From Chryseobacterium defluvii (GTDB lineage: Bacteria; Bacteroidota; Bacteroidia; Flavobacteriales; Weeksellaceae): 64,000 nt of DNA. The translations under genes and the position numbers were made by a program. The DNA is taken from the NCBI RefSeq assembly GCF_003634775.1, contig NZ_RBXB01000002.1:868001-932000 (forward strand), written 5' to 3'. The notes under the pieces are model-generated. The model had not been told where the DNA came from, ran no database searches, and was given only the letters and a program-made list of their open reading frames with translations. The stretch's first letter is position 1. Every line of letters starts with the position of its first letter. Shown here piece by piece: positions 27,876 through 34,132 of this stretch.

Positions 27876-29666
27876 CTAATATGTTCCTTTTTCAATATAA
27901 TGAGCGGCAATTTTTTCAGTTAAAGCTACTACATTCGGATGATTGGTATATTTGGTAAATCTTCTTAATCCGGAAAGCATCATTCTCTGCTCATCACCTT
28001 CAGCGAAAGAAACAATTCCTTCTTTGGCAGCTACAATAATTTTTTCCACAGCCCTGTAAAGATTTAGCTGAGCCATTGCAGCTTCCACAGAATCAGCTGA
28101 GAAGTGTTTTTCTACTCTTAAGACCGTTGATTCCGCCATGTAGATCTGGTTGAGGATTTCAGAAGCATTCAATAGTAAATGTTGCTGTTTCTCAATATCC
28201 ATCATATATTTTTGAAGGGCTGCCCCTGAAACCATTAAGAAAACTTTCTTAAGATTTGCAATAATTGCTTTTTCCTCACTCATGAAGGCAGAATAATCAG
28301 GAACTTCAAATGACGGAATTCCCATCAATTCTTTGCTGATGGCCATTGCAGGGGATAATAAATCCAATTCTCCTTTCATAGCTCTTTTAATCAACATTCC
28401 AACTGCTAATAATCTGTTGATTTCGTTGGTCCCTTCATAGATTCTTCCAATTCGGGCATCTCTCCATGCAGATTCCATTGGAGTATCTTCTGAGAATCCC
28501 ATTCCACCGTAGATCTGGATTCCTTCATCAGCTGTGGTTTGAGTAAGATCAGATACGAAAACTTTAAGAATGGAAGCTTCTACCGCAAATTCCTCAACAC
28601 CTTTTAATTCAGCCTGTTGATGATCCATTCCTCCGGAAACCAGTTCTTCAATCTTATCTTCAACATTTTTAGCCAAACGGTAAGAACCGGCCTCACTTAC
28701 GAAAATGCCTGTCGCCATTTCCGCAATTTTCTTTCTGATGGCTCCGAAAGTTGAGATAGAAACGCCAAACTGTTTCCTCTCATTTGAATATTGAATAGAG
28801 TGATTTAAAATTCTTCTTTGCCCGTCAAGATTGGCCGCTGCTAATTTAATTCTACCAACATTCAAAGCGTTTAAAGCGATTTTGAAACCATTATTTCTTT
28901 CCCCCAGCATATTTTCTACAGGAACTTTCATGTCATTGAAGAAAACCTGACGGGTAGAAGATGAACGGATTCCCAATTTATGCTCTTCCTCACCTAAGGT
29001 CAGACTGTTTGGATCTTCCAGTTCTGAGCGGTTAATCACAAAACCGGTAATGTTTTTATCATCATCAATTTTTGCAAACAATGTAAATGTATCTGCAAAA
29101 CCGGCATTGGAAATCCACATTTTTTGCCCGTTGATGATGTAATGTTTTCCATCTTCAGAGAGTCTGGCTCTTGTTTTTCCTGAATTGGCATCAGAACCGG
29201 CATCAGGCTCTGTCAAGCAATAAGCACCGAATTTTGTTCCTGTAGCCAAATCCGGCAGATATTTCTTTTTTAGCTCTTCGGTTCCATAAAGAAGAGTAGG
29301 AAGGGTCCCGATTCCGGTATGAGCTCCATACGCTGTTGCCAATGAACCATTTCCTCCGGAAACATAGTCACAAGCCAACATGGTGCTTACGAATCCCATT
29401 CCAAGCCCGCCATATTCCTCCGGAACAGCAACGCCTAAAAGGCCCATTTCTCCAAGTTGACGCATTTTTTCTTCAGTCAGTGCATAGTCTTTTTTCTCAA
29501 AACGATCATGCTGCGGAACAACTTCACGGTCTATAAATTCTTTCGCAGAATCGCGAAGCATTTTTTGTTCTTCCGAAAGTTCTTCTAAAGAGAAGATTTC
29601 GTTTGCAGGAATTTCTTTGATCAGGAATTCTCCTCCTTTTAGTGTTTTATTAAGTGTATCACTCAT
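27876..29666 (-). CDS. Acyl-CoA dehydrogenase
   Basis: The 596-residue flavoprotein catalyses the first step of fatty-acid beta-oxidation. It starts FSLEELSEEQKMLRDSAKEFIDREV, has YCLTEPDAGSDANSG for FAD and substrate contact, and ends its catalytic core with IQIYGGMGFSEDTPMESAWRDARIGRIYEGTNEI (about 375-410), where the fatty-acid catalytic glutamate lies in YEGTNE. A further 180 residues form the extra C-terminal helical domain of the long Bacteroidetes/VLCAD-like form. It is the last gene of the marR-fad operon. Confidence 0.95.
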   Translation of the reverse strand: MSDTLNKTLKGGEFLIKEIPANEIFSLEELSEEQKMLRDSAKEFIDREVVPQHDRFEKKDYALTEEKMRQLGEMGLLGVAVPEEYGGLGMGFVSTMLACDYVSGGNGSLATAYGAHTGIGTLPTLLYGTEELKKKYLPDLATGTKFGAYCLTEPDAGSDANSGKTRARLSEDGKHYIINGQKMWISNAGFADTFTLFAKIDDDKNITGFVINRSELEDPNSLTLGEEEHKLGIRSSSTRQVFFNDMKVPVENMLGERNNGFKIALNALNVGRIKLAAANLDGQRRILNHSIQYSNERKQFGVSISTFGAIRKKIAEMATGIFVSEAGSYRLAKNVEDKIEELVSGGMDHQQAELKGVEEFAVEASILKVFVSDLTQTTADEGIQIYGGMGFSEDTPMESAWRDARIGRIYEGTNEINRLLAVGMLIKRAMKGELDLLSPAMAISKELMGIPSFEVPDYSAFMSEEKAIIANLKKVFLMVSGAALQKYMMDIEKQQHLLLNASEILNQIYMAESTVLRVEKHFSADSVEAAMAQLNLYRAVEKIIVAAKEGIVSFAEGDEQRMMLSGLRRFTKYTNHPNVVALTEKIAAHYIEKGTY

Positions 29667-29718
29667 TATTTTATTATTTTAAATTTTAGATTATAAATTA
29701 TAAATTATTGATTCTCTG

Positions 29719-30075
29719 TTATAAATTTTCAGATGAAGTTTTAATGATTCTAGTTAAAATATTAATGATGCTTTCAATGTCTCTCAAATAAGTATCTATT
29801 TCAATCCTAACTAAATTCGAAGATTGATAAAGCCTTAACCAATATTTTGTTTCTCTTGCTTCTTTATTGGCAATTGACAGTTTTGCGATAAAATCTTTTT
29901 TAGACTGTGCAGCAATTGCTTCTTCTACATTTGCGCCAATTGAAGTTCCACAACGAAGAATTTGTTTTGATAAAATAAACTCATTTTGAGATTTACATTC
30001 AGTATAAAATTTAATTATTCTTAAAGCAAATTCAAATGTTTTTATCTGAATTAAATTATCTTCTTTGAAACTCAT
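29719..30075 (-). CDS. Four-helix-bundle protein, 23S rRNA intervening-sequence-protein (IVP/S23) family, copy 1
   Basis: The 118-residue basic helical protein has the conserved core LSKQILRCGTSIGANVEEAIAAQSKKDF and SIANKEARETKYWLRL, typical of one subfamily of IVP proteins (TIGR02436). That family includes ORFs inside 23S rRNA intervening sequences and the Avd proteins of diversity-generating retroelements. Here there is no rRNA or reverse transcriptase. It sits between thiolase and acyl-CoA dehydrogenase in a beta-oxidation operon. It starts and stops exactly at the arms of an inverted repeat (29719-30092). Its own function is unknown; related proteins bind nucleic acids. Confidence 0.88.
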   Translation of the reverse strand: MSFKEDNLIQIKTFEFALRIIKFYTECKSQNEFILSKQILRCGTSIGANVEEAIAAQSKKDFIAKLSIANKEARETKYWLRLYQSSNLVRIEIDTYLRDIESIINILTRIIKTSSENL

Positions 30076-30092
30076 TCATCTAAAATTTATAA
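29719..30092. repeat. Inverted repeat bracketing the IVP-1 gene
   Basis: TTATAAATTTTCAGATGAA (29719-29737) is the reverse complement of TTCATCTAAAATTTATAA (30075-30092), with one extra base. The first arm contains the stop codon of the gene and the second ends on the A of its ATG. A third related stretch (AAATTTTAGAT, near 29682) lies just outside. The transcript would fold into a stem that encloses the whole ORF. Confidence 0.6.
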
Positions 30093-30110
30093 TTTAAAAT
30101 CTATAATTAA

Positions 30111-31289
30111 TTAAAGAAGCTCGAAAATTGAAGCTGCTCCCTGTCCTGTTCCTACACACATGGAAACCATTCCGTACTTGTTTCCGCGTTTTCTCATTTC
30201 GTCAAGAAGCTGAACTGTTAACTTTGTTCCGGTACATCCAAGAGGGTGCCCCAAAGCAATAGCACCTCCGTTTACATTGAGAATGTCAGGATTCAGGCCT
30301 AATTCTTTTTTGATAGCAACGGATTGAGAAGCAAAGGCTTCGTTCAATTCGATTAATTCGATGTCTTTTAATTCTAGACCGGCTTGTTTCAAAGCTTTTG
30401 GAATTGCATAAATGGGTCCCATTCCCATGATTCTTGGCTCAAGCCCGGCTGCTGCATATGCTACCAGTCTTGCTTCGGGTTGTAGCCCTAGTTCCTTTAC
30501 CATTTCTTCACTCATAACCATTACGAAAGCGGCTCCGTCACTCATTTGAGATGAATTTCCGGCCGTTACACTTCCGCCATTGGCGAATACGGGTTTTAAT
30601 TTGGCAAGACCTTCCAGTGAGGTATCTGCTCTTGGACCTTCATCCACAGAAAAATCAAATTTTTTAGTCTGCATTTTCTGGTTTTCATCCAGGAAATTAT
30701 ATTCAACAGGAATTGGAACAATCTGATTGGCAAATCTTCCTTCCTGATTCGCTTTTAAAGCCTTCATATGAGATTCAAAAGCAAACTGATCCTGTTCTTC
30801 TCTGGTGATTTTATATTGTTTGGCTACTTCTTCGGCAGTGTAACCCATTCCCCAGTAATAATCAGGGTTTGTTTTGGCGATGTCGGTCTCAGGAACCGGT
30901 TTGTAGCCACCCATCGGGATATAAGACATGGATTCTGTACCCCCTGCGATGATGCAATCTGCCATTCCTGCCTGAATTTTTGCAGAAGCAATCGCAATCG
31001 CTTCACTTCCCGATGCACAGTATCTGTTGACCGTAACTCCCGGAACTTTATCTGTATTGAGTCCCATCAGTGAAATCAAACGGGCAACATTCAGGCCTTG
31101 CTCAGCTTCCGGCATTGCATTTCCTACGATAAGGTCGTCAATCCTGTTTTTGTCTAATTGCGGAAGCTCAGCCATTAATTTTTCAATAACTGTAGCCGCC
31201 ATTACATCGGGTCTTGTAAATCTTAAACTTCCTTTTGGAGCTTTTCCAACGGCAGTTCTGAAACCCTTTACTATATATGCTGTTTTCAT
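30111..31289 (-). CDS. fadA: Acetyl-CoA acyltransferase (thiolase)
   Basis: The 392-residue enzyme cleaves 3-ketoacyl-CoA to acetyl-CoA and a shortened acyl-CoA. The nucleophile is C91 in NRYCASGSE, the other catalytic residues are H348 in GHPLGCTG and C378 in SMCVGTGQG, and the length matches degradative thiolases. It lies between the fadB-like and acyl-CoA dehydrogenase genes, with an IVP gene in each flanking spacer. Confidence 0.95.
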   Translation of the reverse strand: MKTAYIVKGFRTAVGKAPKGSLRFTRPDVMAATVIEKLMAELPQLDKNRIDDLIVGNAMPEAEQGLNVARLISLMGLNTDKVPGVTVNRYCASGSEAIAIASAKIQAGMADCIIAGGTESMSYIPMGGYKPVPETDIAKTNPDYYWGMGYTAEEVAKQYKITREEQDQFAFESHMKALKANQEGRFANQIVPIPVEYNFLDENQKMQTKKFDFSVDEGPRADTSLEGLAKLKPVFANGGSVTAGNSSQMSDGAAFVMVMSEEMVKELGLQPEARLVAYAAAGLEPRIMGMGPIYAIPKALKQAGLELKDIELIELNEAFASQSVAIKKELGLNPDILNVNGGAIALGHPLGCTGTKLTVQLLDEMRKRGNKYGMVSMCVGTGQGAASIFELL

Positions 31290-31293
31290 AAAT

Positions 31294-31327
31294 TGTATAA
31301 TGTATTAATGTATAATGTACAATGTAT
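31294..31327. repeat. Short tandem TGTATAATG-type repeats
   Basis: The spacer between thiolase and the IVP-2 gene holds three imperfect repeats of TGTATAATGTA. The last copy runs into the inverted repeat around the IVP-2 gene. Confidence 0.55.
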
Positions 31328-31731
31328 TTTAAGTGTTAACTTGAATAAACTTGTTTCAGTTTAATAATCATATTTTGAATATGTTGTATTTCAATAAGAG
31401 TTTTCTGAAATCTGTCTTCCGGAAAAAATTCAGATTCCTTTGCTATTGTAATTTGAGTTTCAAACTCAAATGAAGAACCCAATGCAATATTTAAAAAATG
31501 TGAAAATTGTGCCTTAGTGTCTCTTCCTGCTCCCTTAGCTATGTTAGAAGGAATAGAGTATAAACATCTTCTTGATTGAGAAGTAAGACCAAATAATTCA
31601 TCTTTTGGAAATTCTTTGGAAAAGAAATAATACATTTTACAAAGTTGAATTGATTTTTTCCAAACCTCCAATTGCCTGAAATCATGCATACTAAAAAATA
31701 TTTTTTACGTTAATACTTTTTACATTTTACA
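31316..31731. repeat. Imperfect inverted repeat bracketing the IVP-2 gene
   Basis: The segment at 31316-31340 and the reverse complement of 31708-31731 share the pattern TGTAxAATGTA, then AAGTxTTAAC, with a two-base gap. About 20 of 25 positions match by eye. The first arm contains the stop codon of the gene (31336-31338); the second lies 19 bases upstream of its ATG. Confidence 0.5.
31336..31689 (-). CDS. Four-helix-bundle protein, 23S rRNA intervening-sequence-protein family, copy 2
   Basis: The 117-residue protein belongs to the other common IVP subfamily. It begins FRQLEVWKKSIQLCKMYY and continues with FGLTSQSRRCLYSIPSNIAKGAGR, FLNIALGSSFEFETQ and a late KLKQVY helix. It differs strongly in sequence from copy 1, so the two are not recent duplicates. 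It lies between the fadB-like gene and thiolase, with an imperfect inverted repeat around it. No rRNA or retroelement is nearby. Its role is unknown. Confidence 0.88.
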   Translation of the reverse strand: MHDFRQLEVWKKSIQLCKMYYFFSKEFPKDELFGLTSQSRRCLYSIPSNIAKGAGRDTKAQFSHFLNIALGSSFEFETQITIAKESEFFPEDRFQKTLIEIQHIQNMIIKLKQVYSS

Positions 31732-31738
31732 GAATAAT

Positions 31739-34132
31739 CTAGTTTCTCAATGGTTTTCCATTCTGTAACATGTACTGAATTCTCTCCAACGTTTTTCTTT
31801 CGCCGCAAAGCTGAAGGAAAGTTTCTCTTTCAAGATTCAATAAGTATTGTTCCGTAACGACAGTAGGTTCAGAAAGATTTCCTCCCACCATTACGTTGGC
31901 TAATTTATCTGCAATTTTCTTGTCATGCTCAGAAATATAATTTCCGGTCAGCATCTGGTCGGTTCCTACGTAGAACATTCCCAAAGCATCTTTACCTAAA
32001 ACTTTTACTTTCTGTTCTATAGGTTGTGTATATCCTTGTTCTGCCAATAATTTTGCGATTTTTTTAGCTTCTGCGATCTGTCTGTTTTTGCTTACGGAAA
32101 CGATATCTTTTCCTTTTTCAAGGATTCCCATATCATAAGCTTCATAAGCTGAAGTTGCTACTTTACCCATTGCAATATTCATAAAGGCATCACGAAGCCT
32201 GTTGTTTTTCACATCATCATTATGGAATTCTCTTGACGTTCTCAGTGTCAATTCTTTTGTTCCACCACCGCCGGGAATCACACCAACTCCGGTTTCTACC
32301 AATCCGATATATGTTTCTGCTGCGGCAACCACTCTGTCGGCATGCATAGTCATTTCGCAGCCTCCGCCTAATGTCATTCCGTGAGGAGCAACCACCACAG
32401 GAATAGAGGAGTAGCGAACTCTCATCATCGATTTCTGAAAATAAGCGATCGCCATATTCAGATCATCCCAATCCTGCTCGATAGCCATCATTAAAATCAT
32501 TGCTAAATTTGCTCCTACAGAGAAATTCGCACCCTGATTTCCAATAACTAATCCGTCATATTCTTTTTCAGCCAGATCAATAGCCCTGTTGAGTCCATCC
32601 AACACTTCACCCCCAAGAGAGTTCATTTTTGAACGGATCTCGAAGTTGATAATTCCATCGCCTAAATCCTCAATAGCAGCCCCTGAATTACTCCAAAGTG
32701 TTTTGTTTTTTCTGATATTATCTAAAATAATAAAGGCATCCTGGCCTGGAATTTTATTGTATTGCCCTGAGCTTTTGTCAACGTAAATGCTTTGTCCTTC
32801 ATCATTAACCTTATAGAAGGTCTCTACATTTTTAACCCAGTCTGAAACTTCGTAGCCGGCTTCTTTAGCCAATTCAATACCTTTTTGGACCCCTACGGCA
32901 TCCCAGATTTCAAAAGGCCCGTTTTCCCAGCCGAAACCTGCTCTCATGGCATCATCAATTTTATAGATATCATCCGAGATTTCAGGTACTTTATGAGAAA
33001 CATACGAGAATAATGCTCCTAAGGATTTTCTGTATAATTCACCTGCCTTATCTTTTCCGCCGATTAAAACTTTGAATCTGTCAATCGGTTTGTCAATAGT
33101 TTTTGTTAGTTCCAGTGTAGGGAAGGATGATTTACCCTGAAGCTCATATTCTAATGTATCAAGGTTCAATCCGTGGATTTCAGATTTCCCCTCAGCATTT
33201 TTTACTTTTTTATAGAATCCCTGTTCTGTTTTTGATCCCAGCCATTTATTATCTACCATTTTCTGGATATAGCCAGGAAGTGCAAATACGTCATTGAAAT
33301 CATTGGCTTCCGCTCCGCTCTGACGAACTCCGTTGGCAACCATTACCAATGTATCCAGACCTACAACATCTGCTGTTCTGAATGTAGCAGATTTTGGACG
33401 TCCGATAACAGGTCCGGTTAATTTATCAACATCGGAAACCGTCAAACCTAATTTTTGAACGTTGTGAAGCAAATCCATCATGGAGAAAACTCCGATTCTG
33501 TTGGCAATGAATGCAGGAGTATCTTTAGCTAAAACGGTTGTTTTACCTAAGAATTTTGCTCCATAGTTCATGTAGAAATCTATAATTTCAGGATCTGTAT
33601 CGCTTGTAGGGATGATCTCTAAAAGAGGAAGATATCTTACAGGATTAAAGAAGTGTGTTCCTGCAAAATATTTTTTAAAGTCCTCACTTCTTCCCTCCGT
33701 TAATAGATGGATGGGAATTCCTGAGGTATTAGAAGAAATTAATGTACCAGGTTTTCTGAACTGTTCGATTTTTTCATAGACGGATTTTTTAATATCGAGT
33801 CTTTCCACTACCACTTCAATAATCCAATCCGTATCTTTTATTTTTGGTAAATCGTCATCAAAGTTTCCGATTGTAATTCTGTCAGCAAATTTCTGTGAAT
33901 AGAGCAAAGCCGGGCTGGCTTTTTTCAATTTCTCAAAGTTTTCGGCAGCAATTCTGTTCCTTACTGCTTTATGTTCCTTTGTCAAACCTTTTTTCTGTTC
34001 AGCCTCAGTCAATTCAAAAGGAACAATATCCAGCAAAGATACTTCCACGCCAATGTTGGCAAAGTGCGCTGCGATACCGCTTCCCATAATTCCTGAACCG
34101 AGAACCGTTACATGTTTGATTCTTCTTTTCAT
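31739..34132 (-). CDS. 3-hydroxyacyl-CoA dehydrogenase/enoyl-CoA hydratase, FadB/FadN-like
   Basis: The 797-residue bifunctional enzyme performs hydration and NAD-dependent oxidation in beta-oxidation. The dehydrogenase module comes first: Rossmann motif GSGIMGSGIAAHFAN (12-26), then NFFNPVRYLPLLEI-type residues (FAGTHFFNPVRYLPLLE). A crotonase module follows from about 490, with GANFSVGANL and PHGMTLGGGCEMTMHAD as oxyanion and substrate loops. The order (dehydrogenase then hydratase) matches FadN rather than E. coli FadB. It follows marR and starts the catabolic part of the operon. Confidence 0.94.
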   Translation of the reverse strand: MKRRIKHVTVLGSGIMGSGIAAHFANIGVEVSLLDIVPFELTEAEQKKGLTKEHKAVRNRIAAENFEKLKKASPALLYSQKFADRITIGNFDDDLPKIKDTDWIIEVVVERLDIKKSVYEKIEQFRKPGTLISSNTSGIPIHLLTEGRSEDFKKYFAGTHFFNPVRYLPLLEIIPTSDTDPEIIDFYMNYGAKFLGKTTVLAKDTPAFIANRIGVFSMMDLLHNVQKLGLTVSDVDKLTGPVIGRPKSATFRTADVVGLDTLVMVANGVRQSGAEANDFNDVFALPGYIQKMVDNKWLGSKTEQGFYKKVKNAEGKSEIHGLNLDTLEYELQGKSSFPTLELTKTIDKPIDRFKVLIGGKDKAGELYRKSLGALFSYVSHKVPEISDDIYKIDDAMRAGFGWENGPFEIWDAVGVQKGIELAKEAGYEVSDWVKNVETFYKVNDEGQSIYVDKSSGQYNKIPGQDAFIILDNIRKNKTLWSNSGAAIEDLGDGIINFEIRSKMNSLGGEVLDGLNRAIDLAEKEYDGLVIGNQGANFSVGANLAMILMMAIEQDWDDLNMAIAYFQKSMMRVRYSSIPVVVAPHGMTLGGGCEMTMHADRVVAAAETYIGLVETGVGVIPGGGGTKELTLRTSREFHNDDVKNNRLRDAFMNIAMGKVATSAYEAYDMGILEKGKDIVSVSKNRQIAEAKKIAKLLAEQGYTQPIEQKVKVLGKDALGMFYVGTDQMLTGNYISEHDKKIADKLANVMVGGNLSEPTVVTEQYLLNLERETFLQLCGERKTLERIQYMLQNGKPLRN

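Follow-up and report, generated by a model that had tools for sequence, protein, structure and literature searches.

An IVP gene in the fad operon of Chryseobacterium defluvii and the paired arrays of 7- to 8-nt units that frame its family

Proteins of the IVP (S23p) family are common in bacterial genomes, and to our knowledge their function is not known, the family having remained an orphan since the 1990s. In Coxiella burnetii, an S23p ORF lies within an intervening sequence (IVS) of the 23S rRNA, and tandem GACAGAT heptamers, whose copy number varies by strain, stand directly upstream of its start codon (PMC4990558). This IVS has a 28-bp terminal stem and is excised by RNase III, and its protein is probably not made (PMC4990558). 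Apart from the Coxiella heptamers, our literature search found no report that ties IVP genes to operon gaps or to heptads.

We analyzed a 64,000-nucleotide stretch of the C. defluvii genome (hereafter the window) that carries a fad operon in the order fadB, IVP2, fadA, IVP1, acyl-CoA dehydrogenase, all on the minus strand. In the ORF list, the host genes are a fadB-type 3-hydroxyacyl-CoA dehydrogenase/enoyl-CoA hydratase upstream (31739..34132, 797 aa, with an ortholog in 98 of 98 congeners), a fadA-type thiolase between the two cassettes (30111..31289), and the acyl-CoA dehydrogenase downstream (27876..29666). IVP2 (31336..31689, minus strand, 117 aa) is a 23S rRNA intervening-sequence-type protein, a four-helix bundle; in a profile search it matches PF05635 (23S_rRNA_IVP; E = 8e-34, 116.5 bits against a cut-off of 33.8) and scores 105.5 bits with TIGR02436, above the curated cut-off of 24. 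IVP1 (29719..30075, minus strand, 118 aa) also matches PF05635 (E = 1e-23). The two proteins are 21% identical and fall in separate clades of the protein tree, IVP2 in clade IVP0 of the fadB-fadA gap and IVP1 in clade IVP1 of the fadA-acyl-CoA dehydrogenase gap, and are therefore no recent duplicates. The preliminary description of this locus, made from the DNA letters alone, was thus correct both in recognizing a second, divergent IVP gene in the operon and in rejecting a recent duplication. The nearest named relatives are from Chryseobacterium, with IVP2 93% identical in C. luteum and C. lathyri. The PF05635 relatives with solved structures in the PDB, 2gsc and 2rld, each have five chains. 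IVP2 resembles bAvd only distantly (PF22296, E = 1.5e-4, 22.7 bits, below the Pfam cut-off of 40), and the profile search gave no match of IVP2 to PF01797 (Y1/HUH transposase). Because IVP2 lies in the fadB-fadA gap and not in a helix of the 23S rRNA, we describe it as IVS-type only and not as a 23S IVS. By reading, the source genome contains eight IVP loci, three of which are split or carry stop codons.

Short complementary arms frame both IVP genes of the operon. At IVP2, the 5' arm (31695..31731, minus strand) is heptad-like, GTAAAAT GTAAAAA GTATTAA(C) GTA..., and the 3' arm (31294..31330, minus strand) is complementary to it (TACATTGTACATTATACATTAATACATTATACA), with a complementarity of 18 against 13.4 ± 2.3 in dinucleotide shuffles (p = 0.05). 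At IVP1, the 5' arm (30078..30108, minus strand) reads ATTATAG ATTTTAA ATTATAA ATTTTAG and the 3' arm (29682..29712, minus strand) consists of complementary heptads (p = 0.002 against shuffles). Since the units repeat, alignments of the arms are ambiguous in register. The best register of the IVP2 downstream arm begins 5 nt past the stop codon, and the earlier statement that this arm contains the stop codon holds only in an alternative register with more gaps. Folding the RNA of the whole gaps, which had been suggested for the IVP2 gap, gave unremarkable values relative to shuffles (z = -1.6 for the IVP2 gap, and -1.4 in a second whole-gap fold). The imperfect inverted repeat that had been described around IVP2 does have its two arms, but by itself it is borderline and close to chance; the family survey decides.

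The survey covered 124 non-fad IVP genes from Bacteroidota, which were top-scoring matches rather than a random sample and whose start codons were set by rule. As controls we used 196 neighboring non-IVP genes at equal A+T (0.68) as well as mismatched IVP flanks, and we scored the best local complementarity between the upstream and downstream flank. The median was 18 for the IVP genes versus 10 for the controls and 10 for the mismatched flanks. Many of the IVP loci are orthologs, and the test was redone on 17 protein clusters, with a cluster-level complementarity of 20.0 versus 9.8 that was higher in 16 of the 17 (p = 1.5e-5). Complementarity at IVP flanks far exceeds that of spacers with the same A+T content. 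A survey of this kind had been set beforehand as the one that could overturn the inverted repeats, and the overturning outcome was not obtained. Complementary termini around an ORF, a trait of IVSs, are therefore found at the level of the family and are borderline at the IVP2 locus.

The flanks are also periodic. Their autocorrelation peaks at lag 7 (13.9/14.2 of 21 matches) and again at lag 14; other lags give 8-9 matches (lag 8 gives 10), random segments give 8, and 49% of IVP genes versus 1.4% of controls have at least 16 of 21 matches at lag 7. Around the IS200-like transposase of the fadB-fadA gap, heptad flanks were found in 0 of 33 cases. A few loci are exceptions, with heptads on one side only or in direct orientation (L163, L207, L378); at L163 and L207, the IVP gene has direct rather than inverted heptads on both sides, outside the stem model. 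The sequence of the unit varies by locus (ATTATAG, AAAGAAT, TAGACGG, GTAAAAT, GAGCCAA and others), and the arms of one locus stay complementary.

This pattern is wider than was seen in the preliminary description, as the same frame stands around the IVP family in many bacterial phyla. Our wider sample comprised 18 loci from MAGs labelled as non-Bacteroidota or unplaced, including Patescibacteria, Chloroflexota, Firmicutes, Deltaproteobacteria, Gastranaerophilales and others, although such labels may be wrong. The unit is 7 nt long in most of these loci and 8 nt in four (two of them Gastranaerophilales), both arms agreeing; the Firmicutes MAG arms are repeats of GTTCGTA, a GC-richer heptad. The polarity of the arms is fixed as well. 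At 169 IVP loci against 8, and in 17 clusters against 0, the upstream arm is rich in G and poor in C, and outside Bacteroidota it has more G than C at 17 loci against 1. Heptad hairpins without an ORF keep this polarity (31:4), whereas ordinary co-directional gaps have more G than C in 43 of 108, that is, without such a bias. The genes themselves are oriented, with 114 of the 124 lying between two co-directional genes and running in the same direction and 2 running against them, at a median distance of 51 bp to either neighbor. Strand polarity even in the absence of an ORF, together with this orientation bias, suggests that the element is important at the level of the transcript. Among the mismatches in the arms, we find no excess of G-U over A-C (170 versus 267; cluster means of 20 versus 25).

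These data bear on the most trivial explanation, namely that the arms are accidental pairing of AT-rich sequence or functionless 7-nt repeats generated by replication slippage. The IVP2 arms taken alone (p = 0.05) would allow it, and replication is known to be prone to slip at 7 nt (Mrazek, as cited in PMC4679880). We nevertheless regard this explanation as scarcely probable, given the excess over composition-matched and cross-locus controls in 16 of 17 clusters, the heptads of higher GC content (for example, GTTCGTA in Firmicutes MAGs), the absence of heptads around the fad-gap transposase and from random segments, and the fixed strand polarity.

We find that the fad gaps are multi-allelic. 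The whole exchangeable allele of the IVP2 gap runs from the fadB stop to the fadA start (31290..31738, minus strand), and there are other occupants among 93 congeners, in which this gap holds IVP clade 0 (25), IVP clade 4 (7), an IS200-like Y1 transposase (37), no ORF (19) or another ORF (5). The fadA-acyl-CoA dehydrogenase gap holds IVP clades 1, 2 and 3 (19, 16 and 14), short sequences (35) or other occupants (7). Several of the short alleles at the fad gaps are ORF-less heptad hairpins, and some are empty stretches of 5-18 bp. The transposase is a 154-aa protein (PF01797, E = 8.5e-27), always in operon orientation and flanked by REP-like hairpins (for example, L076, L094 and L127; range L071-L162), and deletion remnants of it are present at L071 and L098. 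Elsewhere this gap contains a 344-aa putative abortive-infection protein (PF16872 putAbiC; L153), a 218-aa ORF of no assigned kind (L138), or a 139-aa ORF without a Pfam match (L128, L130). The suggestion of a preferred site is borne out, as the fadB-fadA gap hosts two IVP clades and a transposase, and the fadA-acyl-CoA dehydrogenase gap hosts three further clades. In other genera of the family, IVPs occur between fadB and fadA (L166, L170, L175) and after fadA (L174, L176); elsewhere in Bacteroidota, they are found before a different thiolase gene (L199, L201).

Horizontal exchange at the orthologous gap has carried whole cassettes from species to species, along with short stretches of the neighboring genes. 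Occupants change at least 42 times per gap on a fadA/fadB tree versus 48-49 times with shuffled labels, a count that is approximate because the tree is drawn from a recombining locus. Sequence tracks the occupant only near the gaps, over the final 95 bp of fadB (z = 3.9), the initial 60 bp of fadA (z = 5.1) and the terminal 89 bp of fadA (z = 3.0). For some pairs of species, the cassette is 96-100% identical at a fadA identity of ~88%, and in the pairs L110/L112, L116/L151 and L117/L151, cassette and arms are mostly 96-100% identical versus mostly 81-95% for the neighboring genes. Sporadic occurrence and horizontal transfer, both traits of IVSs, are thus seen for the fad cassettes. Transposase alleles are exchanged as often as IVP alleles (11 of 615 versus 16 of 691 pairs are anomalously similar), and therefore host recombination suffices; homing driven by the IVP was considered and is ruled out as a requirement. 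Two independent insertions had been proposed for this operon. Different subfamilies do occupy the adjacent gaps, but fresh insertions are not needed when alleles are exchanged between species. The two gaps fill independently (17 congeners with both, 32 and 14 with one, 28 with neither; odds ratio 1.06), and therefore no cooperation is implied.

An alternative that accounts for much of this behavior is a DNA-level selfish element resembling REP/RAYT systems. Here the hairpins would be DNA sites (single-strand hairpins or iterons), the IVP would promote copying or conversion, and the ORF-less hairpins would be non-autonomous copies. Such hairpins do exist, at fad gap 1, groES-groEL and accB-accC, whole cassettes do move from species to species, and a RAYT-type IS200-like transposase with hairpins of its own competes for the fadB-fadA gap. 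The lack of a G-U excess in the arms is also compatible with DNA sites, as is the relation of IVP to bAvd (a weak Pfam match), a nucleic-acid-binding partner of a reverse transcriptase. However, each IVP clade keeps to its own site without spreading to others, and the equally anomalous transposase alleles indicate that exchange needs no IVP activity. Both the strand polarity of the hairpins without an ORF and the 114:2 bias in gene orientation speak instead for a constraint on the transcript, and ORF-less hairpins are rare genome-wide, at ~2 in 110 co-directional gaps. We therefore consider a REP/RAYT-like element unlikely. The same low frequency rules out the idea that operon gaps are generally filled by heptad hairpins.

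The preliminary description had also offered control of fad mRNA stability as a possible role, that is, a regulator in which hairpin and IVP tune the stability or translation of this message. One operon with two cassettes, arms that adjoin the fadB stop and the fadA start, and purifying selection on the IVP are what such a regulator would predict. Yet by reading, the same cassettes occur in unrelated operons, including groES-groEL, carA-carB, trpE-trpG and upstream of nadD, and the IVP protein tree groups by site. Moreover, in many congeners one fad gap or both are without an IVP, the two gaps are occupied independently, a transposase or unrelated ORFs can stand in for the IVPs, and the G-U versus A-C comparison lacks the signature of RNA pairing. 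A fad-specific role is not supported, and we judge it highly unlikely. Gaps in other operons are variable too: by species, the groES-groEL gap (L281-L310; L272 in the source genome) contains an IVP of two kinds or an ORF-less heptad hairpin, and the accB-accC gap (L311-L340) contains ORF-less heptad hairpins in at least three alleles that are unrelated to one another and interchangeable.

Based on these data, we propose that IVP2 and its arms are probably an IVS-type cassette lodged in an operon gap and transcribed with the host operon. The heptamers just upstream of the ORF in the Coxiella 23S IVS are the reason to read the fad cassettes as being of the intervening-sequence type. In four IVP clades dN/dS is 0.06-0.09 (0.06 in that of IVP2), indicating purifying selection, and therefore the protein is used. 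The small IVP gene lies between two arrays of 7-8-nt units that are complementary to each other, and in the transcript these arrays may form a stem that joins the ends of the cassette and leaves the gene in the loop. By analogy with 23S IVSs, a double-strand RNase could then cut the insert from the polycistronic RNA, and this excision would keep the neighboring genes expressed such that the insert is tolerated. An IVP oligomer may bind the repeated units of the cassette that encodes it, each subunit taking one unit, as both solved relatives have five chains. Host homologous recombination between the conserved flanking genes would move the cassettes, since the IS200-like transposase alleles of the fadB-fadA gap show the same signature. 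RNA-level excision or insulation is our leading mechanism, by analogy and unproven. Several observations argue against an IVS-type reading: the arms have no G-U excess although RNA pairing should tolerate G-U, the whole-gap RNA folds are ordinary, a few loci have one-sided or direct heptads, and the Coxiella IVS protein is probably not made (PMC4990558), compared with the strong purifying selection here. The cassette is most likely a semi-selfish passenger. A broader hypothesis, which we put forward as tentative, is that IVP has a dedicated cis partner in the paired 7- or 8-nt arrays of fixed polarity and that a pentamer reads one unit per subunit. The two together would make up a mobile RNP cassette able to remove or insulate itself from ribosomal and messenger transcripts of any kind, which would let it live in the gaps of essential operons.

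A conserved tandem 7-8-nt cis element around the IVP gene, across phyla and in the 23S IVS, provides a candidate substrate and makes the function of the family directly testable. Furthermore, conserved operons (fad, groESL, accBC) can have multi-allelic gaps at which species swap small cassettes through short conversion tracts; comparisons of gene content miss this kind of genome change.

Among described systems, bAvd of diversity-generating retroelements shares a distant family tie and the four-helix bundle with IVP2. The match is below the cut-off, and by reading, no reverse transcriptase is present near the window's IVP genes among the ORFs of 20-44 kb. The heptamer repeats of Beggiatoaceae, Cyanobacteria and Bacteroidetes (TAACTGA; MacGregor 2015, PMC4679880) are likewise 7-nt tandem intergenic units, mostly just before start codons, but they are one heptamer repeated and not inverted, with no reported link to IVP. 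REP/REPIN sequences and their RAYT (IS200-like) proteins have in common with the cassettes intergenic hairpins with or without a single small gene, and both kinds occur in the same fad gap. In contrast, IVP is no Y1 transposase, its arms are heptads and not REP palindromes, and its clades stay at one site. The 23S rRNA IVSs with an S23p/IVP ORF (Coxiella burnetii, Leptospira) share the protein family, the terminal inverted repeats that form a stem, a sporadic distribution and horizontal transfer, and that of Coxiella also has tandem heptamers just ahead of its ORF (PMC4990558). Excision is an analogy for the cassettes described here, whose arms both consist of 7-8-nt units and whose protein is under strong purifying selection, whereas it decays in Coxiella. 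Unlike the 23S IVSs, the fad-type cassettes lie in the gaps of protein operons, with about eight IVP loci in the source genome, and they occur in many phyla.
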